64,000 nucleotides of DNA from Halomarina salina (GCF_023074835.1 NZ_JALLGW010000001.1:310001-374000); one strand, 5' to 3'; shown: positions 25,244 to 42,467, numbered from the stretch's first letter. The notes: a model not told the origin generated them from the sequence alone. Numbers and translations: made by a program.

Positions 25244-26569
25244 TCAGTTCTCGACGACGAACTGGCCCGCTATCTCGGTCACCTCGGCCATCGTCTTCGG
25301 CTCGTCGACGGCCATCGGGAACGGCGACTCGACGTTCAGTTCGTTCAGGAACGAGGCGTGTCGCGCCTCGACGCTGTGGATGCCGATGGCTGCCTCGAAC
25401 ACCGCGTCCGCGGCGACGGTGCCCGCCGCACCCTTGTACGCGGCGACGCCCGTGTTCTCCAGCGCTCGCGCCACGCCGAGGAACTCGCTGGGCGTCTCGT
25501 AGCCGAAGTCGTACGTCGCCTCCTCGACGGGCGTCCCGCCGAGTTGCTCGACGGTGTCGGTGATGGCCCTGACGTGTGCGGCCTCGTGTTCGCCCACCAT
25601 CTCCAGGTGGTAGCGGACGTCCTCGCGGACCGTCTCGCCGAACCCCGAGAGCGCCTCCGCGTCCATCAGGTCCTCCTGACTGAACGCCTCCAGCCCCTCG
25701 CGGTAGAACGCGTTCTCCAGGTGTTCGAGCGTCAGCGCGTAGTTGAGCACGGCCACGTCGTCCGTGTCGTCCTCGGCCTTGCGCTGCTGGTCGGGGCGGT
25801 CATCGCCCGTCTCGAAGACGCTCGGGTCGACCTCGGAGGTGACGAACTGGCCAGCGACGTCGAGCACCTCCTCGACGGAGTTCGCCTCGTCGACCGCCTT
25901 CGGGAACGGCGACTCGGCGTTGACGAGGTTGAGGAAGCTCGCGTGACGCGCCTCGACGCTGTGGATACCGGCCGCCGCCGCGAGCACGTCGGCGTTCACC
26001 ACCTTCGGCGCGGCACCGGCGTACGCGGCGACGCCGGTGTTCTCCAGCGCCTTCGCCACGTCGAAGAACTCGCTGGGCGTCTCGTAGCCGAACTCGTACT
26101 CGCCTTCCTCGACGGGCGTCCCGCCCAACTGCTCGACGGTGTCGGTGAGCGCGCTCACGTGGGCGGCCTCGTGTTCGCCCACCGTCTGGAGGTACCTCGG
26201 TACGTCCATCCGAAGCCGTTCGCCGAACGACGAGAGCGCCTCGGCCTCCATCAGTTCGTCCTCGCCGAACGTCTCCAGTCCCTCGCGGTAGAACGCGTTC
26301 TCCAGGTGTTCGAGCGTCAGCGCGTAGTTGAGCACGGGGACGTCGGGCGCTGGCGTCGACTGGGTCGTGGTGGGGTCGTCCGTCGTCTCGTTCGTCCCCA
26401 TCGTCGTCGTGGCCGGGGCGTCGGAGGTCTGCGGTGGTTCACTCGTCGTCGTGTCACCACCGTCGTCACCGCCGCCCATACAGCCAGCGAGGGTGGCGAT
26501 ACCGAGCGTCGCGGTGGTGCCGAGGAGTGCGCGGCGCGTCGTGTCGGGGGTGTCGTCGGGTGCAGTCAT
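25244..26569 (-). CDS. Tat lipoprotein with two ferritin-like domains
   Basis: A 441-residue protein. RRALLGTTATLG plus LAGC mark a Tat lipoprotein signal, followed by a Thr-rich stalk. Two copies of a ferritin-like domain of the PF13668 type follow (about residues 75-225 and 270-441). Each copy begins LNYALTLEHLENAFYREGLE and has GEHEAAHV and HSVEARHASFLN, i.e. the Glu/His residues needed for a di-iron site. Single-domain versions are common; the tandem form is less so. A role in metal or peroxide handling outside the cell is an inference. Confidence 0.9.
   Translation of the reverse strand: MTAPDDTPDTTRRALLGTTATLGIATLAGCMGGGDDGGDTTTSEPPQTSDAPATTTMGTNETTDDPTTTQSTPAPDVPVLNYALTLEHLENAFYREGLETFGEDELMEAEALSSFGERLRMDVPRYLQTVGEHEAAHVSALTDTVEQLGGTPVEEGEYEFGYETPSEFFDVAKALENTGVAAYAGAAPKVVNADVLAAAAGIHSVEARHASFLNLVNAESPFPKAVDEANSVEEVLDVAGQFVTSEVDPSVFETGDDRPDQQRKAEDDTDDVAVLNYALTLEHLENAFYREGLEAFSQEDLMDAEALSGFGETVREDVRYHLEMVGEHEAAHVRAITDTVEQLGGTPVEEATYDFGYETPSEFLGVARALENTGVAAYKGAAGTVAADAVFEAAIGIHSVEARHASFLNELNVESPFPMAVDEPKTMAEVTEIAGQFVVEN
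25695..25752. repeat. Identical 58-bp copy in ferritin-like domain 2
   Basis: This segment is base-for-base identical to 26280-26337, 585 bp (195 codons) away within the same gene. It encodes the start of the ferritin-like domain. Confidence 0.9.
26280..26337. repeat. Identical 58-bp copy in ferritin-like domain 1
   Basis: Partner of the copy at 25695-25752; the identity at synonymous sites points to a recent duplication or gene conversion. Confidence 0.9.
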
Positions 26570-26773
26570 CGCTTCGTCTTCACCGAGTCAGTTCCCCCTA
26601 AAGAGAATTCTCCGATTTCCGACGGGAATCCCACCAGACGGTGGCGGAACTCTCACCCAACTCCGGTCGGAACTCGCAGACCCCGGTGGCGATAGACGGC
26701 CAGTGGTGGCGACGACCGGTGACGGACGACTTCGTCAGACCAGGCGTTCTCGAAGCGAGCACTGTCCGCTCGC

Positions 26774-27457
26774 TCAGTCCTCGCGCGAGTCGAGCCAGTT
26801 CGCTACCTTCTCGCGCGTGTAGCGGCTGTACCGGTCCGCGTGGTGGACCGGGTCGTCGAACTGGTGCTCGCGGTTCTGCAGGCCGTTGGCGAACCGTTCG
26901 GGCGGCTCGTCGCTCCCCTCCCACGTCGTGCTGGCCTCCTGCGTCCAGAACCAGCCATCGTTCGGTTCGAGGAGGTACGACCAGCACATCGGCGTCAACT
27001 CGGTGTAACAGCCGTTCGCGTCGACGCGGAAGTCGCCGTCGGCGTGGCTCGCCCCGTAGGCGTGACCAGCCTCGTGCCACGTCATCCCACGGACCTCCCA
27101 GGAACCGACCGAGAACGGGTCGGCGTACACCAGCGCTCCGCGCGTCCACTCCCCGTCGTCCGTCACGTAGGTGTCGCTCTGACCGTACCCCCACTGCGCC
27201 ACGTCGTGGGCGATGAGGACGTTCTCCTCGGCGGTCAGCGAGCGATGCTCGTCGAGCCACGACATCGCTCGCTCGATGAAGGAGTGCTCGGTGTCGACGA
27301 ACTCCGCGGGTGCGACGCCCAGTCGGCCGAAGTCCCAGAACTGCCAGTCGGCGTCGGTGGTGTCGTCGAGGTAGTCGACGACGTTCCGGGCCTCCTCCCG
27401 GACGAGCGTAGCCCACCGGGGCCAGCCGGCAGCGGCCGCGAAACTGACGTACGGCAT
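26774..27457 (-). CDS. Metzincin-type zinc metalloprotease domain, no signal of its own
   Basis: A 227-residue ORF with the full metzincin zinc motif: His128, Glu129, His132, Gly135 and His138 in HEAGHAYGASH, and a plausible Met-turn (TPMCW) about 20 residues later. It starts MPYVSFAAAAGWPRW and has no signal peptide. It is in the same frame as the upstream Tat-signal ORF, which ends with a TGA only two codons before this ATG. Either the two are translationally coupled genes or one exported protease has been cut by a nonsense mutation. Substrate unknown. Confidence 0.82.
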   Translation of the reverse strand: MPYVSFAAAAGWPRWATLVREEARNVVDYLDDTTDADWQFWDFGRLGVAPAEFVDTEHSFIERAMSWLDEHRSLTAEENVLIAHDVAQWGYGQSDTYVTDDGEWTRGALVYADPFSVGSWEVRGMTWHEAGHAYGASHADGDFRVDANGCYTELTPMCWSYLLEPNDGWFWTQEASTTWEGSDEPPERFANGLQNREHQFDDPVHHADRYSRYTREKVANWLDSRED

Positions 27458-27460
27458 CGG

Positions 27461-28234
27461 TCACGCTCCGAACGGTCGCACCGCGCGCACGCCGAGGTGC
27501 TCGACGGTCACCGTCGGCGTCGCCGGTCGTTCGACCGCCTCGAAGGCGGGCACCGTCACCGTCTCGCCGGGGCGTTTCCCGGGAGCGGTCCGGGTCCGAC
27601 CGGTCGGCCGGCGGACGGTGACCGAGCTGCTCGGGAGCAGTACGTGTTCTCGCTCCGCCGGGCCGAGGACCGTCGACGCTCCCGCGACGGTGGCACGAAC
27701 GCGCAGCTCTCCGACCCGTTCGAGGTCCACGGACGGCGGCCTCACGCCGTCGAGCACTCGCACGGCCCGTCCACCGTCGAGCGGCAGTCGGTCCGTCGGC
27801 GTGGCCCCGAAGACGTCCGCCCCGAACAGGCCGTCGACGGCCGCCAGCAGCGAGCGCGACTGGACGACGGCGAGGCCGTCGGCCCCCGCCAGCGCTCGTC
27901 GGGCCGTCTCGTACGCGGGACGGGAGAGCCAGAAGACGCCCGACGACGGGTCGCTCCGGACGTGCGAACGGCCGCAGTCGTGTTCCACGTCCACCCCGGC
28001 GTCCACGTCGTAGCGTAGGCTGGCCGTGACGACGGGCATCTCCCCAGCGCCGCCACCGCCGTCTCCCGTCCCGGTCGTGCCGAGGCGGTCGAGCGAACTG
28101 CCGAAAGCCGCGAGCGCCCCCGCCGCGCCGACGAACTGGCGACGGCTCAGCGACCCGTTTCCGTGCCGGTCGAGTGCCGTCCGCCCGCGGCCGACGGCGC
28201 CGTTCCGTACCGGTCGTACCGTCCTCACGTCCAT
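27461..28234 (-). CDS. Tat-signal protein directly upstream of, and in frame with, the metzincin
   Basis: A 257-residue product starting MDVRTVRPVRNG, with Tat motif SRRQFVGAAGALAAFG at about residues 31-46. The remainder is beta-rich with no motif I recognise and ends VRAVRPFGA. An ATG at 28288 would add 18 residues. The stop codon TGA (27461-27463) and one Pro codon separate it from the metzincin start in the same frame. It could be the pro- or targeting region of a once-continuous secreted protease. Confidence 0.75.
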   Translation of the reverse strand: MDVRTVRPVRNGAVGRGRTALDRHGNGSLSRRQFVGAAGALAAFGSSLDRLGTTGTGDGGGGAGEMPVVTASLRYDVDAGVDVEHDCGRSHVRSDPSSGVFWLSRPAYETARRALAGADGLAVVQSRSLLAAVDGLFGADVFGATPTDRLPLDGGRAVRVLDGVRPPSVDLERVGELRVRATVAGASTVLGPAEREHVLLPSSSVTVRRPTGRTRTAPGKRPGETVTVPAFEAVERPATPTVTVEHLGVRAVRPFGA

Positions 28235-28435
28235 CGACTCGACCCTCCGTCTCCCGTCGGCCGCACGAGTCGCTCGACGTCCACACATCGCCGATTCCCG
28301 GACTCCCCCTCGCTCACCCTCACTCGTCGTACGAGAGATGGCAGACGCATAACCGTTTTCTAGTCATTCTCTAGACATGTTTGTGGACAGGTCGCGGAGT
28401 CGTATCGAAAAACGGGAGGGACGAGCGCCGTTCGC

Positions 28436-30313
28436 TCAGCCCAGGAAGGACGCGAGGATGGCCTCGTAGGCGTTGACCACGTCCGCGACGAGTCCGTTCT
28501 CGTCGTCGGAGTCGTCGATACCGTCGTCGTCCTCGTTCTCGTCGTCGCTGGAGTCGACGCACTCGGAGTCGTACGACTCGCCGTAGTTGGTGTCGTCGGA
28601 CTCGGACTGCGAGCTCTCGGTCTCGAAGTCGGCGTCGGCGTCGGTCCGGGTGTCGTCCCGGGTGTCGACGTCTTCGCTGGAGTCGCTCTCCTCGAAGTCG
28701 GACTGGCTCTGGCTGCTGGAGTCGCTCTCGCTGGAGTCGCTCTCGCTCAGGTCGGACTCGCTGTCCTCGTCGCTGTTCGTCTCCCACTCGACGTCGTTGT
28801 TCTCGGCGGTGTCGATGCCGTTGTCGCTCACGCTCTCCGTGTCCACCGACTGCTCGTCCTGCACGGACCGGTCGCTGTCGTCGACGGAGTTCTCGACGGA
28901 GTGCATGCTCTGGTCGCTCTGACTGACGCTCCGGTCCATCGAGGACTCGCTCTCCTCGTTCTGCGTGCTGGACTGTTCGTTGTCGTTGTCGGTCGTCTCG
29001 AGCGTGCTGTCGCTCTCGTCGCTCGCGCTGTCGCTGCTGTCGCTCTCGCTCTCGTCGCTCGCGCTGTCGCTGCTCGCCGACGCGCTGTCCGAGTCGGAGC
29101 TGGAGCTGTCGCTGTCGCTCGACGCGCTGTCGGAGCCCTCGCGGTCGCTCTCGCTCGACTCGCTGTCGCTCTCGTCGTCGGAGCTGGACGCACTGGCGCT
29201 GTCGCTCGATTCGCTGTCGCTGTCGCTCGATTCGCTGTCGCTCGACTCGCTGTCGGTGGAGTCGCTCTCGCTGTCGGAGCTGGAGCTGGCGCTGTCGCTC
29301 GAATCGCTCGCGCTCGAATCGCTCTCGTCGGAGGCGCTGTCGGTGTCGCTCTCCTCGAAGTCGTAGCTGTCGCGGTCGTCGTCGCCGCGGTCGCTCGATT
29401 CGCCCTCGTCGGTCGAGGACTCGACGTCGGTGTCGCTCGACTCGCTGTCGGTGGAGTCGCTCTCGTCGGAGGAGCTGTCGTCCGAAGCGCGGTCGCTCTC
29501 GCTCTCGTCGGAGGCGCTCGCGTCCGACGCGCGGTCGCTCGACTCGCTCTCGCGCTCGTCGGAGGCGCTGTCGCTCTCGTCCGAGGATTGCGAGTCGCTC
29601 GCGCTCTCCTCGCGGTCCGAGTTGGCGAAGTCGCTGTCGTTGGACTCGCTGTCGCTCGCGCTCTCGTCGCTCGCGCTGTCGCGGTCTTCGGAGTCGCTCT
29701 GACTGTCGCTCGAATCGCGCTGGCTGTCCTGTGAGGCGCTGTCGCTCGAATCGCTCGCGCTCTCGCTGCGCGTGCTGTCCTGGTCGCTCGCGCTGTCGGT
29801 CGCGTCGTTGACGGTGCGGTCGAGGGTGCTCTCGTCCTCGTCCATCTGGATGTCCATGTCGTCGACGTCGCTCTGGCGCTCGCTGTGGTCGCTCTCGTCG
29901 ACGTTGTCGACGGAGTCCTCGCTGCTCATCTCGCGGTCGTAGTCGCGGTCGTTCACCTCCAGCGAACTCCCGTCGCGGTACGACTCGCTGTCGCTCGCGC
30001 TGTCCCGGTCGCTCCGGTCCATCGACGAGGCGTCGGCGTCGTTCGCACTGTCGCTCTCGCTGTCGCTCTCGCTACTCGAAGAGTCGCTCGAACTCTCCGA
30101 GTCCTCGCTACTCGAGCTATCTCGGTCGTTACTGCTCCGGCTCTCGCTCGCGTCCTCTTCGTCGAGGGTCGACGCGTCGTCGTCGAGGCTTTCGTACTCA
30201 TCGCACTGGTCGTCCGTCTGGGAACTGCTGCTGGTCTGGGCTGTCGCCACACTCCCAGCACCGGCTAACACCAAGAGGAGAACCATCACGATGGCTAGTG
30301 CTTTGTTGGTCAT
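28436..30313 (-). CDS. Secreted Ser/Asp-rich low-complexity protein 1
   Basis: A 625-residue protein. A classical signal peptide (MTNKALAIVMVLLLVLAGAG, cleavage after VATAQ) is followed by almost 600 residues dominated by Ser, Asp and Glu in SDS, SES and SDSASDES-type runs. A non-repetitive core around residues 100-150 contains SASDSESYRDGSS and NDRDYDRE. A less regular block (SVSDNGIDT, NDVEWETN) and a C-terminus ending AYEAILASFLG follow. Composition recalls Sdr stalks and dentin phosphoprotein, i.e. an extended, highly charged chain that may bind cations. Plus-strand frames across it are shadows. Confidence 0.85.
   Translation of the reverse strand: MTNKALAIVMVLLLVLAGAGSVATAQTSSSSQTDDQCDEYESLDDDASTLDEEDASESRSSNDRDSSSSEDSESSSDSSSSESDSESDSANDADASSMDRSDRDSASDSESYRDGSSLEVNDRDYDREMSSEDSVDNVDESDHSERQSDVDDMDIQMDEDESTLDRTVNDATDSASDQDSTRSESASDSSDSASQDSQRDSSDSQSDSEDRDSASDESASDSESNDSDFANSDREESASDSQSSDESDSASDERESESSDRASDASASDESESDRASDDSSSDESDSTDSESSDTDVESSTDEGESSDRGDDDRDSYDFEESDTDSASDESDSSASDSSDSASSSSDSESDSTDSESSDSESSDSDSESSDSASASSSDDESDSESSESDREGSDSASSDSDSSSSDSDSASASSDSASDESESDSSDSASDESDSTLETTDNDNEQSSTQNEESESSMDRSVSQSDQSMHSVENSVDDSDRSVQDEQSVDTESVSDNGIDTAENNDVEWETNSDEDSESDLSESDSSESDSSSQSQSDFEESDSSEDVDTRDDTRTDADADFETESSQSESDDTNYGESYDSECVDSSDDENEDDDGIDDSDDENGLVADVVNAYEAILASFLG
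29964..30013. repeat. 50-bp segment shared with protein 2 (copy in protein 1)
   Basis: Identical over 50 bases to 32018-32067; encodes the SDRDSASDSESYRDGSS core. A further 28-base identity (encoding NDRDYDRE) lies just beside it. Confidence 0.85.
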
Positions 30314-30549
30314 TCGAATCTCTGTGACCTCTGTTGTAGGTCAGTTACCGGTTCGCTCAGGAGCGTTAAGAACAGGCGACGAAGCCCTGGGAACGTCCGG
30401 AGGGGATGGGGTCAATTCTCCCCCGAACGAACCCCCGGTGCTCGGCCGAGGGGAAGAGACTCTTCGACACGCCGTGGAATCCCCAAAACGCTCCGCGGAA
30501 ACCCCCCGAAAAAGCAGTGGGTTCGACCGGTCCTCGTCGGGCGACCCCG
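30314..30549. other. Spacer between the two Ser/Asp protein genes
   Basis: No gene seen. It must hold the promoter of protein 1; I see no clear TATA box, only a CTTAAC element about 55 bases before the start. Confidence 0.4.
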
Positions 30550-32385
30550 TCAGTCGAGTTTGCTGACGTCGATGTCGAACGAACCGTCGGCGTTCTCGAC
30601 GATGACGCCCTTCCGTTCGAGTTCCGACGGACTCTCACCGGTGACGATCATCCGTTCGGTCGTCGTGTCGCAGGTGGAGTCCCGGGTCTGGTCGCGCTGG
30701 GTCCGGTCCTGCGTGCTCTCGCTGCGGTCGCGCTGACTCTCGCTCTCGGAGTCGCTGCGGTCGCTGTCGCGCGATTCGAGGTCGTGAGCGCGGTCGCTCC
30801 GGTCCTCCTGGCTCGCACGGTCGCTCTGTTCGGCGCGCTCGCTACGGTCGCGCTCGCTCAGGTCGGACTCGCTGTCCGTCTGGCTGTTCGACGCGCTCTC
30901 GACGTCGTTGTCCAGTCTGGTGTCGACGCCCTCGTCGCTCACGCTCTCCGTGTCGCGTGCGGACTCGTTGGACGCGTTGCGCGTGCTGTCGCTCGCGTCG
31001 CGTTCGTCGGTGTACGTACTCCCGTCACGCGCGCTCGAGAGTCGGTCGCTCTCGCTCCCGCTGTCCGTGCGGGCGCTCTCGCTCTGCTGACTGTCGTTGT
31101 CGGTGCGGTCCAGTCGGCTGGCCCGCTCGTCGCTCGCCGACTCGCTCGCGTCGCTCGCGCGCTCGTCGCTGGCGGACTCGTTGCCCGACGACTTGCGCTC
31201 GGAGTCTGCGCTGTCACGCTGACTGTCGCTCGCGGCGCTCTCGGAGCCCTCCCGGTCGCTCTCGTCGACGCTAGAGTCGCTCTGGTTCTCGGCGCTCGAC
31301 TCGCTGGCGCTGTCGGAAGCGGCGCTGTCGCGCTCTTCGCTGGCGGCGTCGCTGCGGTCGTTCTCGCTCGAATCACGCTGGCTGTCCTGCGAGGCGCCGT
31401 CGCTGGACTGGTCGGCGCTCGACTCGCTCTCGTCGGCGGCGCTCTCACTGTCACTGGAGTCGCCGTCGTCGTCGCGCTCGCTGCTGTCGCCGTCGCTCGA
31501 CGCTTGCTCCTCCGCGGAACTGTCGTCGGAGACACTGTCACTCGAATCACTCGCACGCTCCTCGGCGGCTCGCTGGTCGGAGGCGTTCTCCGCGGCCTCG
31601 CTCTGGCTCTCGTTGCTCGTGCTGTCGCTCTCGTCGACGGACTGGGAGTCGCTGGCGGCCGCCTTGCGGTCCGCCTCGGCGTACTCGCCGTCGTTCCGCG
31701 CCGAGTCGCTCGCGTTCTCCGCGGACGCGCTCTCGCGCTCCTCGTCGGCGCTCGCCGACTCGCTGGCGTCGCTCGCGCGCTCGTCGCTAGCGGACTCGTT
31801 CGCACTCGACTCGCTCTCGCTGCGCGTACTGTCCTGGTCGGACTCGTTCGCGGCCTGCTCGCTGACGTCGTGGTCGCGCTCGCTCACCTGCTCGTCGGTC
31901 TCGACGTCCCTGTCGTCGACGTCGCTCTCCTCGACGCTGCGGTCGCTCTCCTCGACGTCGCTGGCGTCGCGTTCGCTGCTCGCCTCGCGGTCGTAGTCGC
32001 GGTCGTTCACCGCCTCGGAACTCCCGTCGCGGTACGACTCGCTGTCGCTCGCGCTGTCCCGGTCGCTGGCGTCGCTCGCGCTCTCGTTGCTCGCGCTGGC
32101 ACTCGCGCTCGCACTGTCGCTCGCGCTCGCGTCGCTGCTCCGGTCGTGCTCGGCCAGCGCGCTGTCCGCCCGATTTCGCTCGTCCTCGCTCTGCTGTTCG
32201 CTCTCGTCGACGTCGCTCGTGACGTCGACGTCCTCGTCGAGGTGTTCGCTCACGTCGCACCGCTCGTCGTCGAGCGTGTAGATGACGGTCTGGTCGTCGC
32301 TCTGCGTGACCGGGGTAGCCGCAGCGACGATGCCCGCCAGTACCAGCAGCGCGGCCACCGTGAGCACACCCACTTTGTCGATCAT
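30550..32385 (-). CDS. Secreted Ser/Asp-rich low-complexity protein 2
   Basis: A 611-residue paralogue of protein 1 lying immediately upstream in the same orientation. It has a signal peptide (MIDKVGVLTVAALLVLAGIV), an N-terminal Cys-containing segment and a long Ser/Asp/Glu/Ala/Arg region. It shares the core SASDSESYRDGSS and NDRDYDREASSE, the later block SVSDEGVDT and the block DSESDLSE. Unlike protein 1 it ends in an ordinary-looking segment (MIVTGESPSELERKGVIVEN) that could be a folded C-terminal domain. A GGAG motif lies 7-8 bases before its ATG. Confidence 0.85.
   Translation of the reverse strand: MIDKVGVLTVAALLVLAGIVAAATPVTQSDDQTVIYTLDDERCDVSEHLDEDVDVTSDVDESEQQSEDERNRADSALAEHDRSSDASASDSASASASASNESASDASDRDSASDSESYRDGSSEAVNDRDYDREASSERDASDVEESDRSVEESDVDDRDVETDEQVSERDHDVSEQAANESDQDSTRSESESSANESASDERASDASESASADEERESASAENASDSARNDGEYAEADRKAAASDSQSVDESDSTSNESQSEAAENASDQRAAEERASDSSDSVSDDSSAEEQASSDGDSSERDDDGDSSDSESAADESESSADQSSDGASQDSQRDSSENDRSDAASEERDSAASDSASESSAENQSDSSVDESDREGSESAASDSQRDSADSERKSSGNESASDERASDASESASDERASRLDRTDNDSQQSESARTDSGSESDRLSSARDGSTYTDERDASDSTRNASNESARDTESVSDEGVDTRLDNDVESASNSQTDSESDLSERDRSERAEQSDRASQEDRSDRAHDLESRDSDRSDSESESQRDRSESTQDRTQRDQTRDSTCDTTTERMIVTGESPSELERKGVIVENADGSFDIDVSKLD
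32018..32067. repeat. 50-bp segment shared with protein 1 (copy in protein 2)
   Basis: Partner of 29964-30013, about 2.05 kb apart. Its surroundings diverge much more. Confidence 0.85.
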
Positions 32386-32592
32386 GTGTTCTCTCCTGAG
32401 TATCTAGTGTATCCGTCAGTCACGCGGTGAACACGGCTTGGGACACGCCCCTAGATCGTGCGCATCTTCGCCTGTCTCGGGCAAAAAGAGGCGACGAAGG
32501 GTAGGGAAGAATCGCGCTGACGGGGGGACGCGGGACCGACGCCAGGTCACCGCCGACACCGGTCACCGCCGATTCCCGTTCGCCACCACGCC

Positions 32593-33321
32593 TCAGTCGG
32601 CCGACCGGACGACCACTCGCACGTCGTCGCCCGCCCCGTGGTTCGCGTCCTCGACGGACTCGACGCCCTGGAGTTCGTACTCCCGCGGGTCGACGGGGTC
32701 GCCGTCCACGGTCACGGTGACCTCGTCGCCGTCCGCCTCGGCGTACTCGCGCCCGTCGATGGTCGCGCTGTCGCTCGTCACCGTCATCCCGAGCGTCTCC
32801 AGGGCGTACTCCAGCGTCACGTTCTCGCAGTGGGCGTGCCACACCGCCGACGCCGGTGTGTCGCCGTGGTGGTCGCTCCCCGCACCGCGTTCGTGGTCAC
32901 TCTCTTCGTACGTACTCGCCTCGTCGTCACTCCCCCCGTCGCTCTCGTCCTCGTGGAAGTGGAAGCACTCGTCCGCTTCGAGGTACCGCGGGTCGGAGAG
33001 GTCCACGGTCTGGTCGTCGTACTGGACGGTGATGCGGCCGTGTTCGTGCGTCCCGTTCGTCGGATCGGGCGTGACCGCGGCCGAACTCGGGCCGGGGCCG
33101 GAGGAGACGGCCACGAGGCCGTACCCGAGCACGAAGAGGAGCAGGACGCCACCGAGGCCGGCGTAGAGGACCAGTCGGCCGCGGTTCGGTCGGTTCCTCG
33201 CTGCCCGCACCCGGCGGCGGTCGATGGCTGTCAGGTCGTCCTCGTCGTGTCCCCGGCGGAGGTGGCTCACGTACGCGTCGTCGGGGACCGAGTCCCCGCA
33301 GTACGGGCAGTCGGTAGTCAT
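32593..33321 (-). CDS. C2H2 zinc finger, single TM and His-rich outer domain
   Basis: A 242-residue protein from the ATG at 33321. Residues 5-24 form a C2H2 finger (CPYCGDSV then HLRRGH). A transmembrane helix follows at about 49-70 (VLYAGLGGVLLLFVLGYGLV), then an outer domain with TVQYDDQTVDLSD, FHFHEDE, DHHGD, WHAHCENVTLEYAL and repeated TVTVDGDPVDP. The outer domain is a recurrent haloarchaeal module; clustered His, Cys and acids suggest metal binding (inference). The longer open frame upstream is Arg-rich and rejected. Confidence 0.82.
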   Translation of the reverse strand: MTTDCPYCGDSVPDDAYVSHLRRGHDEDDLTAIDRRRVRAARNRPNRGRLVLYAGLGGVLLLFVLGYGLVAVSSGPGPSSAAVTPDPTNGTHEHGRITVQYDDQTVDLSDPRYLEADECFHFHEDESDGGSDDEASTYEESDHERGAGSDHHGDTPASAVWHAHCENVTLEYALETLGMTVTSDSATIDGREYAEADGDEVTVTVDGDPVDPREYELQGVESVEDANHGAGDDVRVVVRSAD

Positions 33322-33518
33322 GGGCGAATACGACGAGCAGACGGCGACGAGATATGAAGACTGGTCGAAGAATCGGGGCGACGGCCGCGGCCGGGGACGG
33401 CGTACCGACGCGGCCGGGTCCCCCACCACTCGGGGCCGGGGACATCCGCGCAGGCCGTCTCCCATCCGGTGCCGATTCCCACCCAGGGTACATGCCACGT
33501 GGAAGACCGGAGTCGGGT

Positions 33519-34559
33519 ATGGACCGCATGGACCGTCGAACGTACCTCGCGCTGGTCGCCGGGGGAGCGCTCGCACTCGCTGGCTGTGCTCGTGCCAGCG
33601 CCGAGCGCCAGTCCACGCGCGGGCGCGGCGACGAGTCGCGGGGGCCCCAGACGACGGCGAGCCAGTCGCCCGAGTCGCCGGAGTCGTACGGTCTCGGCGA
33701 CCGGTTCGGCGTCGGCGACCTCGACCTCGTCGTCTACGGAGCAGACGTCGTCGACCGAGTGGACGCCCCCTCCGACGACGACCCCTTCGAACTGGACACG
33801 GAGTCCGACGAGAACGTCCTCGCGGCGACGGACGGGTCGGCGTTCGCCGTCGTCGACGTCGCCGTCCAGCACGCCCGCGGGAAGGGAGTGGTGGACGTCG
33901 ACCGGGAGCTGACGGTCGCGCTCGGTGACGGGACCGACCGGCGGTACGCGGCGGTCCGAGCGCTCCGCCCCGAGGCGCGCGCGGTCACGGCAGGCCGCCT
34001 CGCCCCCGGTGAGGTCGTCCGCGGCGACCTCGCCTACGAGGTGGGCGACGACGTCCGGGACCTCGTGGTCGAGGTCGGACCCCCCGGTGCCGGCCCGTCG
34101 GCCGTCGTCGGCACCGGCGAGAAGCGGAGCCAGGGAGTGGGGGAGAGACTCCAACAGGACCTCCAGGGCGTCCACGAGTTCTCCCAGGGCGTCGAGCGAG
34201 GTGGCGTCGAGGTCCGCATCGCGAGTCTCGAACGGGGGAACGACCTCGGTGGGTTCCTGGACGCCGACGACGGCGAGGAGGTCGTCGTCCTCGGCGTCAC
34301 GGTCGACAACACCACGAATCGGGAGCTGCGCCTCTCGCCCGCACAGCTCCAGCTCAAAGACGAGTCGGGGCGGGTCTACGACGCGAGTTCGACGATGGTC
34401 GGCGCACTCGGCGACCTCTCGGAACTGTCGGTCGCCGCCGAGGAGAAGGAGGAGGGAGAGGTCGGCTACCGGGTCGACGAGGGGAGCGGAGAACTGTACT
34501 GGCTGTTCGACTTCGGCGAGTGGGGCACCGACCAGCGAGTCGCCTGGCTCCTCCGGTGA
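33519..34559 (+). CDS. Lipoprotein with two DUF4352-like domains
   Basis: A 346-residue protein from the ATG at 33519. RRTYLALVAGG and LALAGC mark a Tat-like lipoprotein signal. Two beta-sandwich repeats follow: LGDRFGVGDLDLVVYGADVV onward and GVEVRIASLERGNDLGG onward, the second with VVLGVTVDNTTNREL, typical of the Telomeric-repeat-binding-factor-2-like DUF4352 fold. These domains usually bind ligands or partner proteins outside the cell. It is divergent from the C2H2 gene. Confidence 0.85.
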   Translation: MDRMDRRTYLALVAGGALALAGCARASAERQSTRGRGDESRGPQTTASQSPESPESYGLGDRFGVGDLDLVVYGADVVDRVDAPSDDDPFELDTESDENVLAATDGSAFAVVDVAVQHARGKGVVDVDRELTVALGDGTDRRYAAVRALRPEARAVTAGRLAPGEVVRGDLAYEVGDDVRDLVVEVGPPGAGPSAVVGTGEKRSQGVGERLQQDLQGVHEFSQGVERGGVEVRIASLERGNDLGGFLDADDGEEVVVLGVTVDNTTNRELRLSPAQLQLKDESGRVYDASSTMVGALGDLSELSVAAEEKEEGEVGYRVDEGSGELYWLFDFGEWGTDQRVAWLLR

Positions 34560-34766
34560 GCCTGCTATCGACGGCGCCACCGGACGTGCCACGAGATGGG
34601 CAGACCCTGCGGTAGCCGCGACCGGTCGGTGGCGCGTCGCTCGCGAACGTCTCGCGTGACGTAACACGGGTCGGGAACGGTCGGTGACGGTCGTGAAGAA
34701 CTGCGCTCGGAGGGGCCAGCTCTCGGGGGAGACCAGCTCTCGGTCGAGAGTCGACGGTCGCCGGAA

Positions 34767-34943
34767 CTACCGGAGGGCGTTGTCGACGCGGATGGCACTC
34801 GTCTCGTCGGTCTCGTAGGCGGCCATGATGAGGCCGACGACTTCGGGGTTCGACGGTTCGTACCCGAGTTGCTGTTCCATCGTCCGCTTTATCTGTTCGA
34901 ATCGGTCGCTCTTCGAGCCGTAGAGTTTGATGTGTGACGTCAT
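34767..34943 (-). CDS. Small ribbon-helix-helix-like protein 1
   Basis: A 58-residue protein starting MTSHIKLYGSKSDRFEQIK. A short strand (HIKLYG) is followed by two helices separated by GYEPSNPEV, the plan of RHH (CopG/MetJ-like) DNA-binding proteins. It is closely similar to the gene at 35232-35399. A 6-bp hairpin (GCACGG/CCGTGC) lies about 25-40 bases upstream of the start. The family assignment is inferred from layout. Confidence 0.72.
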   Translation of the reverse strand: MTSHIKLYGSKSDRFEQIKRTMEQQLGYEPSNPEVVGLIMAAYETDETSAIRVDNALR

Positions 34944-35231
34944 GAGTTGTCGTTGGGGTCGAACGGGCACGGCCGTCCGTGCGTGTCGTTCGTGGTCGCT
35001 CCCGACGGTGGAGACGCGTCGTGACGGCCACCGGAGCCAGTCCGTCGTCGTTCGTCACCGGGAGGGCACCGACCGACCGCCACCAGGACGCATCCCGTTC
35101 GACGGTCGTTCGCTGCCACAGTTGCACGAACGACGCCATCCGGTACGAATCGTCGACCTACGTAGTTGGATACGGGAGACCCTACGTCTCTCGGGTGGGT
35201 GGGTGTGGTCGGTCGCCGAACGCCGACCGGT

Positions 35232-35399
35232 TCAGGGGAACGTTCGGTCCGTCAGGGCGGTGTCCCAGTCCCGACCGGCCATCAGGAGGCCGAGCACCTC
35301 CGGATTGCTCAGTTCGTAGCCCATCCGCTCGCTCATCTCGGCTTTCAGCTCCTCGAAGCGCCGGGCCTTCGGCCCGTGGAGTTTGATGTGCGTGGTCAC
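35232..35399 (-). CDS. Small ribbon-helix-helix-like protein 2 (GTG start)
   Basis: A 55-residue paralogue with strand HIKLHG, helix RRFEELKAEMSERMGY and helix SNPEVLGLLMAG. No ATG is available in register; a GTG at 35399 gives VTTHIKLHG, matching MTSHIKLYG in the paralogue. It lies upstream of protein 1 in the same orientation, with a 288-base spacer in which I see no gene. Confidence 0.72.
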   Translation of the reverse strand: MTTHIKLHGPKARRFEELKAEMSERMGYELSNPEVLGLLMAGRDWDTALTDRTFP

Positions 35400-36139
35400 G
35401 GTCGCTCCGGGTACTGTTCGGTCGCCGCACGGTCGGTCATCCGAGTACCCCACGCTCCAGTGGGTGGGAGGGCACACTCCGGACGCCGAGTATCCGAACG
35501 GTGCCGTCGTCGCCACGGGCCACTGTCGCCGGGTGAATCTGTCGTCTTCGTACCATAGCTGGTGTCCGGACACGACTCCGAGCGAGTCGCCGCCGTCCGG
35601 CGAATGCGTTGCGGTCCGACGAGTGCGTCGCCGCCGACCGTGTCCGTGTTCGCGGGACGACGCGACGACCGGGCGTAAAACCCGGTCGAAGCTTCGCCGG
35701 GTATCGCGGGGGAAGGGGACCATCTGACCCCCGTATCCCCGGAACGCCGAAGAGCACCCCGCAGGCTCCAGCCACGCGGGGCGACGGCGGGCACTCCGAC
35801 GTAATAAGCGAGTCGAGAAGTCACCGTGCGACCGTCTGGCCCCGGTGACCCGCCCCACGCGTCGGTAGGCCCGTCGAATCCGTACCGTAACTGCCAGCCT
35901 ACACTGTATTCTAGGGGAATAGGCTACATCGGTTTTACCGCTGCGGACCCTCCTCAGAGCTGTCGAAGAGATTGGACGACGAATCGCCACCAACACGGAC
36001 ACGTCGAGTCGGCAGACCGACCGACGGTCCACGAGACGACCCGACCGCCGGACGCTGCCGGGGCGTGAGCGTCGGAGCGTCCGACGCGCCGCTGGTGGCG
36101 TCGGTCGGCACCGAATCGACGACACTCGAGGACCCAGGC
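35400..36139. other. Long intergenic region upstream of the PAS/GAF sensor
   Basis: About 740 bases without a gene I can support; long open frames on both strands are Arg-rich shadows. A near-perfect hairpin (ACCCGG-T-CGAAG / CTTCGCCGGGT, 35680-35702) and an AT-rich patch at about 35905-35940 that may hold the sensor promoter are visible. The sensor frame is open from a TTG at 35972. Confidence 0.5.
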
Positions 36140-39061
36140 ATGGCACACGAAGGCCCAACGATCGGTGGGGACGCCAGATGGAGTGGTATCGACGCGGCTG
36201 GTAAGGGCGTCGTCGGCGTCGACGAGTCGGGTAGCGTCGCGTTCGTCACGCCCGCCGGGGCGCGACTCCTCGGTCGTCGCGTCGACGACCTCGTCGACAG
36301 TCCCCTCCAGGAACTCGTCCGCGACGACGACCCCGACGCCGCACTCTCCCGTCTCCGGGACGCGGCGGCCGAGACCGGCGGAGCGGACGCGCCGGACGAG
36401 ACGCTGACCGTCCGTCACTGGGACGGTCACGACGTCTCGCTCCGGACGGCCGTCGAGACGGTCAGCGAGAACGGACAGGAGCTTCTCGTCCTCGTCGTCC
36501 ACGACGTCGAGAACTACCGGTACGACGGTGAACGGACGGGCGACGGTGAGCGACCGAGCGCCCGCGTGCAGGAAGGAGACGGACCCGACGGCGGCCGTGG
36601 AGCCGACGACGACGACCACGAGGCCGACGGCGATTCGGCGTACACCGTCGAGATGGTCCGCGGCGTGTTCGACCACCTCAACGACGCGTTGCTCATCACC
36701 GACCCGGAACACGACGTGTTCCGGGCGTGCAATCCCCGCGCGTGCGACCTCCTGCAGTACGACGCCGACGACCTGCTGTCGCTCCCGCCAGCGGCCCTCT
36801 TCGGCCGCGACGGCGAGTCCTACGCGACGTTCGTCGAGGAGACGTTCGAGCGAGGCGCTGGCTGGACCGACGACCTCACCGTCGAGACGGGCGAAGGGAC
36901 GGCGCTCCCCGTCGAGGTGTCGGTCGCCGTCGTCGAGTTCGACGGCGACCCCCGGATGCTGTGGAGCCTGCGCGACATCAGCGACCGCCTGGAACGGGAG
37001 CAGGAGCTTCGCCAGCGGGTGGTGGCGATGGAGTCGTCCATCGACGGGATGGCCGTCGTCGACGCCGACTGGACGTACCTGTTCGTCAACCCGGCCCACG
37101 CCGACCTGTACGGCTACGAGTCGCCCGACCGCCTCGTCGGCCGGTCGTGGTTCGACCTGTGCGACGAGGCTACCAGACGGCAGTACGAACGGGAGATACT
37201 CCCATCACTCGACGCGCAGGGCTACTGGCGCGGGGAGAGCGTCGGCCAGCGACGCGACGGTGCGACCTTCGAACAGGAACTCTCGCTGGCCACCGTCGGC
37301 GACGGCGACGTCGTCGGGGTGGTGCGCGACATCAGCGACCGCAAGGCGGCCGAGCGACTCCTGCGCGCGCTCAACCAGCAGAGCCGCGACCTCCTGCGAG
37401 CGACGACCGAACGGGACATCGCCCAGCGCGGCGTCGAGGCCGTCGAGGACATCATCGGGTTCGACATCAGCTGTATCCGGCTGTTCGACCCGGAGTCGAA
37501 CGCGTTCGACATCGTCGCCCAGACCGACCGCGCCGAGGAGTTGATCCGGTCGCGACCGGTGTTCAACCTGCGCTCGACGTACGCGGGACGGGCGTTCAGA
37601 CGCGGCGAGACCGTCCAGAAGGTGGAACCGGACGGTCCGGACACGCCGTACGGCGACGACGCCATCGAGACGGGGGTGCACGTCCCACTCGGCGAGTACG
37701 GCGTGCTGACCGTGCTCACGACGGTCGGGCAGACCATCGACGAGCGGGACGTCTCGCTGATCGAACTGCTCGCGTCGGACGTCACGATGGTGCTCGAACA
37801 CACCCGGCGCGAGCGACTGGTCAGCGACCACGAACGCGACCTGCTCATTCAGCGCGACCGCCTCCGTACCCTCGACCAGATCAACGCCGTCATCCGCGAA
37901 ATCGTCCAGCGACTGCCGCGAGCGACGGCCCACCGGGAGGTCGGTGAGGTCGTCTGCCGGTGCCTGCTGGCCTCCGAACTCTACCAGGACGCCTGGATCG
38001 TCGAGTCGGACCCCGGTACCGGCGTCGTCGCGACCGAGAGCGTCGACGGGGACGACACCTGGTCGGCCGGCGAGTCGACGCGACCCGACGCCGTAACGAC
38101 GGCCATCGAGACCGGCGTGATACAGGTGACGCGTCAGTACACCGTCACGGGGACCGACGCGGAGTGCGAGGACGACCCGACCACCTTCGAGGCCAGCATC
38201 GCCGTCCCGATTCGCCACGGCGGGCGCGTCGAGGAGGTGCTCGTCGTCAGCACCGACCGCCGAGACGCCTTCACCGAGTCCGAACAGGCCGAGTTCGAAC
38301 TGCTCGGCGACACCATCGAGTTCGTCGTGCGCTCGCTCACGACCAAGAACCTCCTGATAGCGGACAGCGTCGTCGAACTCGGCATCGAGGTCGCGGCGGG
38401 AGACGACGTCTTCCTCGACCTCTCGTCCCGGTTCGACTGTCGCTGCGTCGTCGAGGACGCCGTCCCGCTCCGAGAGGGTCGCCTCCTGCAGTACGCCACC
38501 GTCGAGGGCGCGCCGCCCGAGGAGGTGTTCGACCGGGCGGGGGAGACCGACAGCGTCGAGACCCGGCGTATCCTCGACCAGACCGACGACACGACCGTAC
38601 TCGAACTCGTCGTCACCGAGTCGCCGATTCACGACCTCGTCGACCTCGGCGCACACGTCCGGTCGTTCTCTGCGGAGGGGGGCACGGCTCGTCTGGTCAT
38701 GGAAGCGCCCGCCGACGTCAACGTCAGGGGCCTCCTGGACGTGTTCCGGCGTCGGTACGACCACGCCGAACTGGTGGCCAGGCGAGAGACCGGTCACCGG
38801 GTGGCACCGGGCGTCCAGTCGGTCAACGCCGCGGACCGGTTCCTGACCGAGCGCCAGCGGACGGCCATCAGAGCCGCCTACGCGGCCGGCTACTACGACT
38901 GGCCGCGCAAGAGCACGGCCGAGCAGGTCGCCGAGTCGCTCGACATCACCTCGGCGACGCTCCACCAGCACCTCAGGAAGGCCGAGGAGAAACTCCTCCA
39001 CGCGTACCTCGGCGACACCATCTACGTCCCGACTCGACCGGCCGAGGGAAACGACTCGTGA
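36140..39061 (+). CDS. Multi-PAS/GAF sensor with HTH_10 output (bacterio-opsin activator family)
   Basis: A 973-residue cytoplasmic regulator from the first ATG in frame. Order: a short PAS-like segment (15-115), a variable acidic linker, two PAS domains (about 165-290 and 295-420, each ending LRDISDR or VRDISDR), two GAF domains (about 430-575 and 590-740), the bacterio-opsin-activator domain and a C-terminal HTH_10 (LTERQRTAIRAAYAAGYYDW, SLDITSATLHQHL). The family senses light, redox or small molecules and binds DNA directly, with no kinase step. No cofactor residue can be assigned. Start uncertain by up to 56 codons. Confidence 0.92.
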   Translation: MAHEGPTIGGDARWSGIDAAGKGVVGVDESGSVAFVTPAGARLLGRRVDDLVDSPLQELVRDDDPDAALSRLRDAAAETGGADAPDETLTVRHWDGHDVSLRTAVETVSENGQELLVLVVHDVENYRYDGERTGDGERPSARVQEGDGPDGGRGADDDDHEADGDSAYTVEMVRGVFDHLNDALLITDPEHDVFRACNPRACDLLQYDADDLLSLPPAALFGRDGESYATFVEETFERGAGWTDDLTVETGEGTALPVEVSVAVVEFDGDPRMLWSLRDISDRLEREQELRQRVVAMESSIDGMAVVDADWTYLFVNPAHADLYGYESPDRLVGRSWFDLCDEATRRQYEREILPSLDAQGYWRGESVGQRRDGATFEQELSLATVGDGDVVGVVRDISDRKAAERLLRALNQQSRDLLRATTERDIAQRGVEAVEDIIGFDISCIRLFDPESNAFDIVAQTDRAEELIRSRPVFNLRSTYAGRAFRRGETVQKVEPDGPDTPYGDDAIETGVHVPLGEYGVLTVLTTVGQTIDERDVSLIELLASDVTMVLEHTRRERLVSDHERDLLIQRDRLRTLDQINAVIREIVQRLPRATAHREVGEVVCRCLLASELYQDAWIVESDPGTGVVATESVDGDDTWSAGESTRPDAVTTAIETGVIQVTRQYTVTGTDAECEDDPTTFEASIAVPIRHGGRVEEVLVVSTDRRDAFTESEQAEFELLGDTIEFVVRSLTTKNLLIADSVVELGIEVAAGDDVFLDLSSRFDCRCVVEDAVPLREGRLLQYATVEGAPPEEVFDRAGETDSVETRRILDQTDDTTVLELVVTESPIHDLVDLGAHVRSFSAEGGTARLVMEAPADVNVRGLLDVFRRRYDHAELVARRETGHRVAPGVQSVNAADRFLTERQRTAIRAAYAAGYYDWPRKSTAEQVAESLDITSATLHQHLRKAEEKLLHAYLGDTIYVPTRPAEGNDS

Positions 39062-39386
39062 CTGGCCGAGATGGACGCGTCTCTGACTGGCACGGAGAGC
39101 GTTCCAGCCGAGTCGTCGTTCGCGATTCACCGTCGCTCCCGACGAGGAAGGCCGCGACCGGCACGCACCCCGAGCGCGCCCTAGCTGTCGTGAGCGTGCG
39201 GGCACTAGCTACCATGGCACGCCGACCTTGGCACCACCGCGCCTCGGTACGGTCGTGAGGTAGACAGATGTACGTTGAGGCACGGGGGACGAGCGGTTCG
39301 ACGGACCGAGCATCGGCGGCGCGTCGAGGTGGTCGCTCGCAGTCCCCGGGCAACCGAGGCGGGCTGGTGAACGAGCGAGGGTCGCC
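39062..39386. other. Intergenic stretch without a supported gene
   Basis: Only weak short frames; a 40-codon frame from an ATG at 39268 ends in a GTGA overlap with the next gene, but its translation is unremarkable. Confidence 0.45.
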
Positions 39387-39557
39387 GTGAACAGAGTCGA
39401 CGGCGGAGCGAACCGCGACGCGTCGACCTACGACCCGGTCGAACTGCAGTACACCGCGACCGTCCGTGACGGGAGTGGGCTGGTCATCGTCGACCTGAAC
39501 GACCTCCGCGCCTGGATTCGCTCGACGACGTCCGCCGACCTCTCGGAGATGCTCTGA
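39387..39557 (+). CDS. Small acidic protein (GTG start)
   Basis: A 56-residue frame from a GTG: it begins VNRVDGGANRDASTYDPVEL, continues with a beta-rich stretch (SGLVIVDLNDLRAWIRS) and ends DLSEML. Length, acidity and the V/I-rich strands followed by a Trp resemble short haloarchaeal proteins of the DUF7331 kind. It precedes the zinc-finger gene at 39610 in the same orientation. Moderate confidence that it is translated. Confidence 0.55.
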   Translation: MNRVDGGANRDASTYDPVELQYTATVRDGSGLVIVDLNDLRAWIRSTTSADLSEML

Positions 39558-39609
39558 TGGGACGGAGCGGGGACGTGTCGCGACGGGCGACAGCCTCGGA
39601 GGCTCCGCC

Positions 39610-39957
39610 GTGACGGTCTACAAACGCTGTCCGTTCTGCGACGAACTGTTCGCGATCGGCGCGGAGGACGACGCCCCGATGCGCAGACACATGGAGGACG
39701 CCCACGGAGAACTCGGCCGACCACCGTCCCCGCCGGAGACGGCCAGTGCCATCTCGTTCCAGGACGTTCGGCGCGCGCTCGAAGACGAGGCGTCGCCGCG
39801 GGGCGTCCTGCTCGCGTGCGTCTTCAAACGCGACGTGCTCACGGAGGTGTTCGGCCAGTGGTACGGCGTGCCCGAATCGGCGGTCGAGGCGCAGTTCGAC
39901 CTGCTGGAGGCCGACCTCTTCGAAGAGGCAGCGAGGTCGGACGACGAGTCGTTCTGA
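39610..39957 (+). CDS. C2H2-type zinc-finger protein (GTG start)
   Basis: A 115-residue protein with a single zinc finger at the N-terminus: CPFCDELF and a later HMEDAH pair. The remaining helical region (ISFQDVRRALEDEA, then YGVPESAVEAQFDLL) has no family I can name. The start is a GTG giving VTVYKRCPFCDE. Single C2H2 proteins are numerous in haloarchaea and include small regulators. Confidence 0.78.
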   Translation: MTVYKRCPFCDELFAIGAEDDAPMRRHMEDAHGELGRPPSPPETASAISFQDVRRALEDEASPRGVLLACVFKRDVLTEVFGQWYGVPESAVEAQFDLLEADLFEEAARSDDESF

Positions 39958-40011
39958 CGCCCGCTCCCCTCGTCGCTGTCGACGCTCCTCGTCGCTGTCG
40001 GCCGCCCGTAC

Positions 40012-41250
40012 TCAGGTCGCGATGCCGAGCGCGGCGGCGACGTCGACGACGCCCTGTCCCTGTTCGTCCTCGTCGAGCCCGACGTCGGTCGCCGTCTCCC
40101 CGAGTCGTGCCCGCACCTCGTCGCTCGAACACCCCTCGGCCATCAACAGGGCGGCCGCACCGGCGACGTGCGGTGCCGCCATCGACGTCCCCGAGTGCTC
40201 CTCGTACTCGTCGCCGGGGACCGTCGAGAGGACGTCGTCGCCCGGTGCGACGAGTTCGACCTCGGGTCCGGTCAGCGAGAAGTCGGCCAGTTCGCCCTCG
40301 TCCGCGAGCGCACCGACCGCGAGGACCGACTCGTGTGCCGCCGGGTAGCGGACGACGGTGTTGTCCTCGCCCACGTCGACGTTCCCCGCCGCACCGACCA
40401 CCAGCACGCCCGCCTCGGTGGCGTAGCGACAGGCGTCCGCGATGAGGTCGGACGGGTCCTCGTCGCCGAGGCTGAGGTTGGCGACGTGCACCCCGCTGTC
40501 GGCGGCGTACTCCAGCCCCGCGGCGATGTCCGCCGACTTCCCCCCGGAGTCGGACCCGACCTTGATGGCGTGGATGGACGCCCCGGGGGCGACCCCTCGA
40601 ACGCCCTGCTCGTTGTCCGATGCCCCGACGATGCCAGCACAGTGCGTTCCGTGGCCGTCGGTGTCCTGCCACGCCGGGAGGTCGGCCGCGACGTCGGCCG
40701 CTCCGCTCTCGTCGTCCTCGCCGTCACCCACCTCGTGGTCGCTCTCGACGAACGCCTTCCCCTCCCCCAGGTTCTCGCGCAGGTCCGGGTGCCTGCTCGC
40801 GACGCCCGTGTCGAGGACGGCGACCTTCGCACCCGCGCCGGTCAGGCCGTTCTCGTGGGCCACTCCGGCACCGATTCGCTCGACACCGCTCGGGAGGGTC
40901 TGTTCGGCGTCCAGGTCGGCCACGGACGCGGTGTCGAAGAGTCGCTTCTCGGCGTTCGCTTCGACGTACCGGATGTCGGTACGCGCGGCGAGCGGTTCGA
41001 CGAGACGCTTCGGGAGGCGGAGCGTCACCGCGTCGAAGCCGAACTCGCGGCCGACGGTGGCCGCGTCGCCGAGTGCGGCGTCGAGACCCGCGGGTTCGTC
41101 GTAGCCGACGTTCACCTCGACGAGTTCGACGTCACTGGTCGTCACCCAGCCACCGACGCCGAGTGCGAGACCGCTGCCTGCCGCCCCGACTCCCGTCAGG
41201 AACCGCCGTCGGTCCATAGCCGTCGCTGCTGGTGTCTGATTCGTGGTCAT
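40012..41250 (-). CDS. Tat-exported subtilisin-like serine protease (halolysin type)
   Basis: A 412-residue S8 protease. Tat signal DRRRFLTGVGAAG is followed by an I9-like propeptide (about 40-110) and the catalytic domain. The triad is Asp147 (VAVLDTGV), His200 (DGHGTHCAG) and Ser356 (GTSMAAPH), with oxyanion Asn290 (GAAGN). It lacks the C-terminal extension found in longer halolysins. The ATG at 41250 is the one that gives a Tat signal near the start; a TATA-like TTTATA lies about 60 bases upstream. Confidence 0.95.
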   Translation of the reverse strand: MTTNQTPAATAMDRRRFLTGVGAAGSGLALGVGGWVTTSDVELVEVNVGYDEPAGLDAALGDAATVGREFGFDAVTLRLPKRLVEPLAARTDIRYVEANAEKRLFDTASVADLDAEQTLPSGVERIGAGVAHENGLTGAGAKVAVLDTGVASRHPDLRENLGEGKAFVESDHEVGDGEDDESGAADVAADLPAWQDTDGHGTHCAGIVGASDNEQGVRGVAPGASIHAIKVGSDSGGKSADIAAGLEYAADSGVHVANLSLGDEDPSDLIADACRYATEAGVLVVGAAGNVDVGEDNTVVRYPAAHESVLAVGALADEGELADFSLTGPEVELVAPGDDVLSTVPGDEYEEHSGTSMAAPHVAGAAALLMAEGCSSDEVRARLGETATDVGLDEDEQGQGVVDVAAALGIAT

Positions 41251-41791
41251 GGTAGGTCGCGTTCCGTCGCCCGGTGGGGCGTACCGGAACGATACCGAAC
41301 GTCGTCTATAAACCTTCCCATACACCAACTGATAACCAGACATCCGTTATCCTAATCAGCTATTCCACAGAACAATTTACGGAATCGACCGTCATCGGCG
41401 GCCGAACGTCTCGCCGGTAACATCCGGAATCGGGACGGAGCGAGCAGCGCCGATCCTCGTGAGAACACCGTTTTACGTGCCCCTGTTCCGATACGTCCGG
41501 CGACCAGTGAAGTCGGCTGAAGCGTCCTGTCAGTAGACGGCCCCGTTAACCGGCGCTTGACCACCGCGTCGCACGACCACGGGCGGCGGAGCGTCGCGCT
41601 GGACGGACCGACTCGGCTCGCAGTCACTGTCCACGTGGTAGTCGTCGCGCGCTCGCGAACGTCGGCGCGAGCGTCATCGACCTCAGGCGCGAGCGACATC
41701 GACCGCGGGAGGGAACCTACGTGCGTAGCGCGTCGCCACGCTAGGGAGGTAGGTCGTCGGTTCTTCGAACCGCTCCCCCTCTCTCGGCCCG
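41251..41791. other. Divergent intergenic region, subtilase / membrane-anchored protein
   Basis: No gene seen in about 540 bases. An AT-rich stretch (41308-41395) holds the subtilase promoter. A 19-bp direct repeat with one mismatch (GGCGCGAGCG-T/A-CATCGACC, 41664-41682 and 41686-41704) lies nearer the downstream gene. Confidence 0.5.
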
Positions 41792-42448: not shown

Positions 42449-42467
42449 GTGACGGCCCGACTCGCCT

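Follow-up and report, generated by a model that had tools for sequence, protein, structure and literature searches.

Low-complexity acidic proteins are usually regarded as flexible filler of free length. Several described systems resemble the genes considered here: halomucin of Haloquadratum walsbyi (Hmu1-3) is a haloarchaeal coat protein that is secreted, acidic and of low complexity (PMC1544339), the staphylococcal Sdr/MSCRAMM proteins carry a Ser/Asp-rich surface tract, dentin phosphophoryn (DSPP) is a Ser/Asp-rich polyanion, and acidic wall polymers of alkaliphilic bacilli lower the pH at the surface (PMC8153356). In a 64,000-nucleotide stretch of DNA (Halomarina salina, NZ_JALLGW010000001.1:310001-374000; hereafter the window), we analysed two adjacent genes, P1 and P2, whose products belong to a haloarchaeal family with two invariant cysteines around a proline-free acidic segment. 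We tentatively propose, with rather less than even confidence, that P1 and P2 form paired, disulfide-closed, length-defined polyanionic loops in a surface layer able to retain cations, protons and water. The genes and the P1 export signal lie as follows:

28436-30313, minus strand: P1, subfamily B by the tree of termini; open reading frame of 625 residues, rich in Ser, Asp and Glu, predicted secreted, net charge -193
30550-32385, minus strand: P2, subfamily A by the tree of termini; open reading frame of 611 residues, rich in Ser, Asp, Glu, Ala and Arg, predicted secreted, net charge -130
30236-30313, minus strand: P1 signal peptide, residues 1-26, from the sequence and an AlphaFold2 (AF2) helix at residues 2-17

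P1 and P2 belong to a haloarchaeal protein family

A sequence-only reading of this region had described two tandem, secreted-type Ser/Asp open reading frames, and both are present, on the minus strand, each starting with a Sec-type signal peptide as judged from its sequence. That reading centred their likeness on a shared core. The identical core is there, but the resemblance is not confined to it: the two proteins align end to end by BLASTP (47% identity, 1e-65), marking them at the sequence level as paralogues over their whole length. Overlooked were the two cysteines of each protein, the proline-free repetitive segment and its near-fixed length. The remark that no archaeal protein of this form was known to be described stands in that no library entry was found (no match for P1 or P2 in Pfam and NCBIfam, none for P2 among PDB sequences), but close, unannotated relatives are present in Natrialbaceae.

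Judged by sequence, P1 and P2 represent an unnamed haloarchaeal family of two ancient subfamilies, A (P2-like) and B (P1-like). Both show the family signature, namely a signal peptide, two cysteines around a proline-free Ser/acid segment of about 548 residues, and an A or B tail. The 34-residue core peptide, used as query, found its own genome only; a species-orphan reading based on that query was dropped once the P2 C-terminus found relatives elsewhere, with matches in 14 of 392 order-level genomes (two of them weak) and tandem relatives in Natrialbaceae. Seven congeners and the taxonomic family (146 genomes) held no clear homologue. A B profile matched 23 of 125 Natrialbaceae genomes, about 17 strongly, and its sole strong match beyond Natrialbaceae was the window's own genome. 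Scanning genome contigs with P2 alone gave no match, probably because P2 is divergent, and scanning them with an alignment of A proteins gave 13 loci. The set collected comprises 16 A and 22 B proteins, 38 in all; weak matches, with E about 1e-4 to 1e-3 (among them G034, G246, G435, G431 and G398), were left out of membership.

Named holders include Natronorubrum texcoconense, N. thiooxidans and N. bangense, Natrialba chahannaoensis, N. hulunbeirensis and SSL1, Halostagnicola sp., Natronolimnohabitans innermongolicus, several Natronococcus and a Natrialbaceae metagenome-assembled genome; in N. bangense, a P2-like gene lies on a plasmid in a matching neighbourhood. Apart from the window's own genome, every holder belongs to Natrialbaceae. 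We take the holders to be mostly soda-lake or alkaliphilic lineages (partly after PMC6423904). The tree of termini splits A cleanly from B (support 0.997). When each subfamily serves as outgroup to the other, P1 and P2 each join non-Natronococcus members (support 0.78 and 1.0), and this placement of their termini inside Natrialbaceae diversity fits horizontal acquisition.

A 674-residue open frame runs antisense to P2 (30406-32430, plus strand), and relatives have comparable antisense frames. As genes, these were set aside as a by-product of P2 codon composition.

Cysteine spacing and composition of the segment

The two cysteines of each protein were located from the family alignment and cysteine spacing:

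30203-30205, minus strand: P1 Cys37, the invariant N-terminal cysteine
28559-28561, minus strand: P1 Cys585, the invariant C-terminal cysteine, 548 residues past Cys37, a spacing equal in 21 of 22 B proteins
32257-32259, minus strand: P2 Cys43
30670-30672, minus strand: P2 Cys572

Beyond residue 30, exactly two cysteines occur in 38 of 38 members. Their distance in B is 548 residues with a single exception, at 536, and in A it ranges from 504 to 551, most commonly 547; the share of proteins at the modal length differs between B and A (Fisher P 1.5e-4, kinship ignored). Aligned without gaps, the P1 segment is 38-52% identical to other B segments; followed along the segment, identity is 38-53% in register and at most 37% when shifted. 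Register is kept throughout, although there may be some compensating indels within the Natronococcus branch. The tail after the second cysteine is a constant 38-39 residues in A and 26 to 77 in B. The near-fixed length of B, a feature of the sequences, suggests a length-defined surface structure and not a floppy spacer.

These measurements bear on the idea of an Sdr-like passive stalk, a disordered, flexible spacer projecting a terminal binding unit off the S-layer. Such a stalk would suit the Ser/Asp-rich composition, the signal peptide, the predicted disorder and the small conserved mini-domain of A. Yet a flexible spacer does not need the exact Cys-Cys spacing of B, cysteines stand at both ends, and B is without a folded head. 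The tails of P1 and P2 (..ILASFLG and ..DVSKLD) contain neither an LPXTG sortase signal nor a PGF-CTERM motif with membrane helix, and the loops are free of proline. No N-terminal Ig-like ligand-binding domain was found (Pfam matched neither protein, and P2 had no counterpart in the PDB), and where Sdr proteins have a variable-length tract of Ser-Asp dipeptides, P1 and P2 have a heterogeneous alternation, with the 548 spacing fixed in B. The likeness to Sdr stalks drawn in the sequence-only reading is not borne out on these grounds, and we consider a passive stalk doubtful.

The loop segments contain no proline in 20,689 residues, 19 lysines and no cysteine; neighbouring genes have 3.9% proline. 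Thousands of loop codons (TCN, GCN, ACN, CGN) are one base away from a proline codon. Of the Ser codons, 74% are AGY; the TCN route to proline comprises 1413 codons and the remainder runs through Ala, Thr and Arg codons. Along the segment, serine alternates with acidic residues: neighbouring acidic pairs are avoided (0.36-0.43 of expectation), with an excess at spacings 2, 5, 7 and 12. A search for one coherent period, helical or solenoid, instead showed power distributed over 2.0-2.4 and 4.85 residues, which limits our claim to alternation with phase slips. Glycine makes up merely 1-2% of the loops, and the GGxGxDxUx nonapeptides of RTX beta-rolls are absent from them.

Net charge ranges from -130 to -209 per family protein. 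Soda brines are poor in Ca and Mg. Together with a His/Cys-rich ectodomain in a neighbouring gene product (below), this would favour a phosphophoryn-like cation binder or mineral nucleator, in which dense carboxylates, possibly with phospho-Ser, would bind Ca/Mg or regulate surface mineral. Against this, the locus showed no recognisable kinase, the 12% Arg of A lowers its net charge, and cation binding alone does not account for the fixed length. The (DSS)n repeats of phosphophoryn are absent from P1 and P2 by composition, spacing and sequence, and A, unlike DSPP, is Arg-rich. Phosphophoryn-like cation binding is possible; as the full explanation of these proteins we regard a binder or nucleator of this kind as unlikely, and membership of the Sdr or phosphophoryn families is not supported.

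Conservation and gene conversion in the core

The core occupies corresponding positions in the two genes:

29931-30013, minus strand: P1 conserved and converted core, with 28-base and 50-base blocks identical to P2
31984-32067, minus strand: P2 conserved and converted core, with blocks identical to P1 and conservation across the family

The sequence-only reading had noted 50 identical bases with 28 more beside them, and both are present. No exact run aligned between the genes is longer than the 50-base one (29964-30013 and 32018-32067). When synonymous codons were shuffled within each gene 2000 times, the longest run averaged 20 bases and never exceeded 48, so the observed run is beyond chance. 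Codon identity in the core and over the whole gene lies above these codon-shuffle nulls, and at identical residues P1 and P2 share the same codon in 44 of 47 cases in the core (94%) against 161 of 225 elsewhere (72%; P = 7e-4). The two proteins also share a derived form, YDRE, where other aligned members have EQRD-like residues. P1 joins P2 in the core tree (support 0.93) and in the middle tree (1.0), and the A and B proteins of Natronococcus join each other in the former, both contrary to the tree of termini. This conflict indicates that homogenisation has repeatedly affected the core and middle of tandem copies but not their termini, which stay distinct. Since the core blocks RDGS, NDRD and SER are also conserved across the 38 relatives, the choice previously offered between selection on the core and gene conversion resolves into both.

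Tandem-copy conversion this clear, in repetitive sequence, could also be taken to mean low-complexity paralogues homogenised by slippage and conversion, with no specific function. The exclusion of proline, the invariant cysteines, the fixed length, synteny across genera and the separately kept A and B termini all argue otherwise; this explanation is already disfavoured, and we find it very improbable.

Predicted structure of the segment and its ends

AF2 predicts P1 and P2 as almost wholly disordered, without a fold (mean predicted local distance difference test, pLDDT, 38-39). Short elements are predicted at the ends:

32269-32289, minus strand: P2 N-terminal strand, residues 33-39, conserved in A (AF2, alignment)
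30553-30669, minus strand: P2 C-terminal mini-domain, residues 573-611 (38-39 residues in A), pLDDT about 70-82, with a strand at 576-582 (AF2)
28445-28492, minus strand: P1 C-terminal helix, residues 608-623, pLDDT about 43-61, a hydrophobic tail typical of B (AF2, other B tails)

Strands 33-39 and 576-582 were taken as partners because they are the sole long strands and equal in length. In the AF2 model of A, their paired positions sum to 615, as do Cys43 and Cys572; from this shared sum we read a putative disulfide-locked antiparallel clamp around a 528-residue loop.

Conserved neighbours and the island

The following features surround P1 and P2:

32593-33321, minus strand: finger/membrane protein, a conserved neighbour by synteny, with a cytoplasmic CxYC..H..H finger, one membrane helix and an ectodomain
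33519-34559, plus strand: DUF4352 lipoprotein, a conserved neighbour (Pfam PF11611, 1.6e-18; synteny)
34767-34970, minus strand: small helix protein, a conserved neighbour (synteny; up to 91% identity across haloarchaeal families)
36065-39061, plus strand: PAS/GAF/BAT/HTH_10 regulator of bacterio-opsin-activator type, a conserved neighbour (synteny, domain matches)
40012-41343, minus strand: S8 (subtilase) peptidase, also near several homologous loci
26672-42467, unstranded: island of 15.8 kb, absent from a congener (G007) by empty-site comparison

One gene order, with local rearrangements, is shared by the window and Natrialbaceae loci: BAT-type regulator, small helix protein, DUF4352 lipoprotein, finger/membrane protein, A, B. 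In the finger/membrane ectodomain the motifs HxHG, CFHFH and WHxHC are invariant in 15 aligned members; by its sequence it is possibly metal- or thiol-active and a candidate new domain. In Natronorubrum thiooxidans a paralogue of this protein, fused to a DsbA/Thioredoxin_4 domain (3e-23), lies between two B genes (L063:8845-9648, minus strand).

This fusion at one locus, together with exactly two terminal cysteines per protein and the precedent that halomucin sets for acidic coats in archaea (PMC1544339), would also suit an end-to-end disulfide polymer, in which the cysteines chain monomers into a hydrated gel capsule. The predicted cysteine register in A favours an intramolecular bond, though, and a polymer does not need monomers of fixed length; such a capsule seems to us hardly likely.

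In G007, ferritin-like and GtrA genes adjoin at the empty site. The GC content of the island resembles that of its flanks, and no tRNA or direct repeat was found at its ends. The ABC-transporter region of the window is 79% identical to a Halomarina plasmid and 78% to G007. The small helix protein (MTSHIKLYGSKSDRFEQIK...) lies near most A/B cassettes and is remarkably conserved for its size; Pfam gave no family above cut-off for it. At 26774-28288, minus strand, a Tat/secreted-type frame (27461-28288) and a HExxH metallopeptidase-like frame (26774-27457) share one reading frame across TGA CCG ATG, and some weak homologues are single open reading frames of about 450 residues; they could represent either a single interrupted gene or two coupled ones. 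A lipoprotein at 25244-26569, minus strand, has two tandem, mutually similar Ferritin_2 domains, an internal duplication common to G007.

A proposed surface layer

We tentatively propose that a horizontally moved haloarchaeal surface module brought the A/B pair. Each protein would be exported by Sec and built from an N-terminal cysteine, a proline-free polyanion of about 548 residues, a second cysteine and a subfamily-specific tail. The two cysteines are probably joined as a disulfide, since the residues flanking them in A are predicted as an antiparallel two-strand clamp; the segment would then be a giant loop fastened at its base. Side by side on the cell surface, A and B loops would make a polyelectrolyte layer that takes its dimension from the fixed segment length; the B hydrophobic helix and the A mini-domain may attach or assemble it, perhaps assisted by the finger/membrane partner with its thiol/His ectodomain and, in one genome, DsbA-fused paralogue. 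By analogy with known surface polymers, retention of Na+, protons or scarce divalent cations, and of water, would be the most economical function, and useful in soda brines. Possible but unlikely is a stronger version, in which the segment is ordered in brine as a regular, proline-intolerant, extended structure, and A and B form an in-register lattice or brush with its thickness set by 548 residues, a length-defined encoded wall for high salt and pH.

Several points weigh against the proposed layer of closed loops. AF2 confidence is low throughout, as would be expected for a disordered chain, and the strand pairing was derived from DSSP coordinates of that low-confidence model instead of a contact map. 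In phylogenetic terms the 38 proteins do not count as independent, and since the lengths of A vary more, A may be out of register with B. Halomarina, probably the genus of the window's host, is not known to be alkaliphilic, so the soda-lake link may reflect Natrialbaceae only.

Comparison with known systems

If correct, the proposal would introduce a kind of archaeal envelope component not described before, and would offer a tractable example of structure under selection in sequence that predictors call disordered. The B chain keeps one exact length through about 50-60% sequence divergence and excludes proline wholly, and gene conversion homogenises the middle while sparing the termini. Halomucin is set apart by description: P1 and P2 (611-625 residues) match it in strong acidity (-130, -193), signal peptides and predicted secretion, but not in its giant size of 2000 residues or more. 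Hmu proteins have 2079-9159 residues and mucin-like domains, whereas P1 and P2 are paired, near 620 residues, near-fixed in length and furnished with two cysteines. Among alkaliphilic Bacillus, teichuronopeptide and other acidic wall polymers are proposed to form an anionic matrix that lowers surface pH (PMC8153356), a role the A/B layer would share; those polymers are poly-gamma-glutamate and polyglucuronate, and P1 and P2 are genetically encoded proteins. Haloalkaliphilic archaea may thereby have a protein counterpart to them. Synaptonemal complex proteins likewise keep their length despite sequence divergence, which has been read as a sign of dimension-setting assembly (PMC8598163). They are coiled coils without homology to the A/B family, and the analogy is one of evolutionary signature only.

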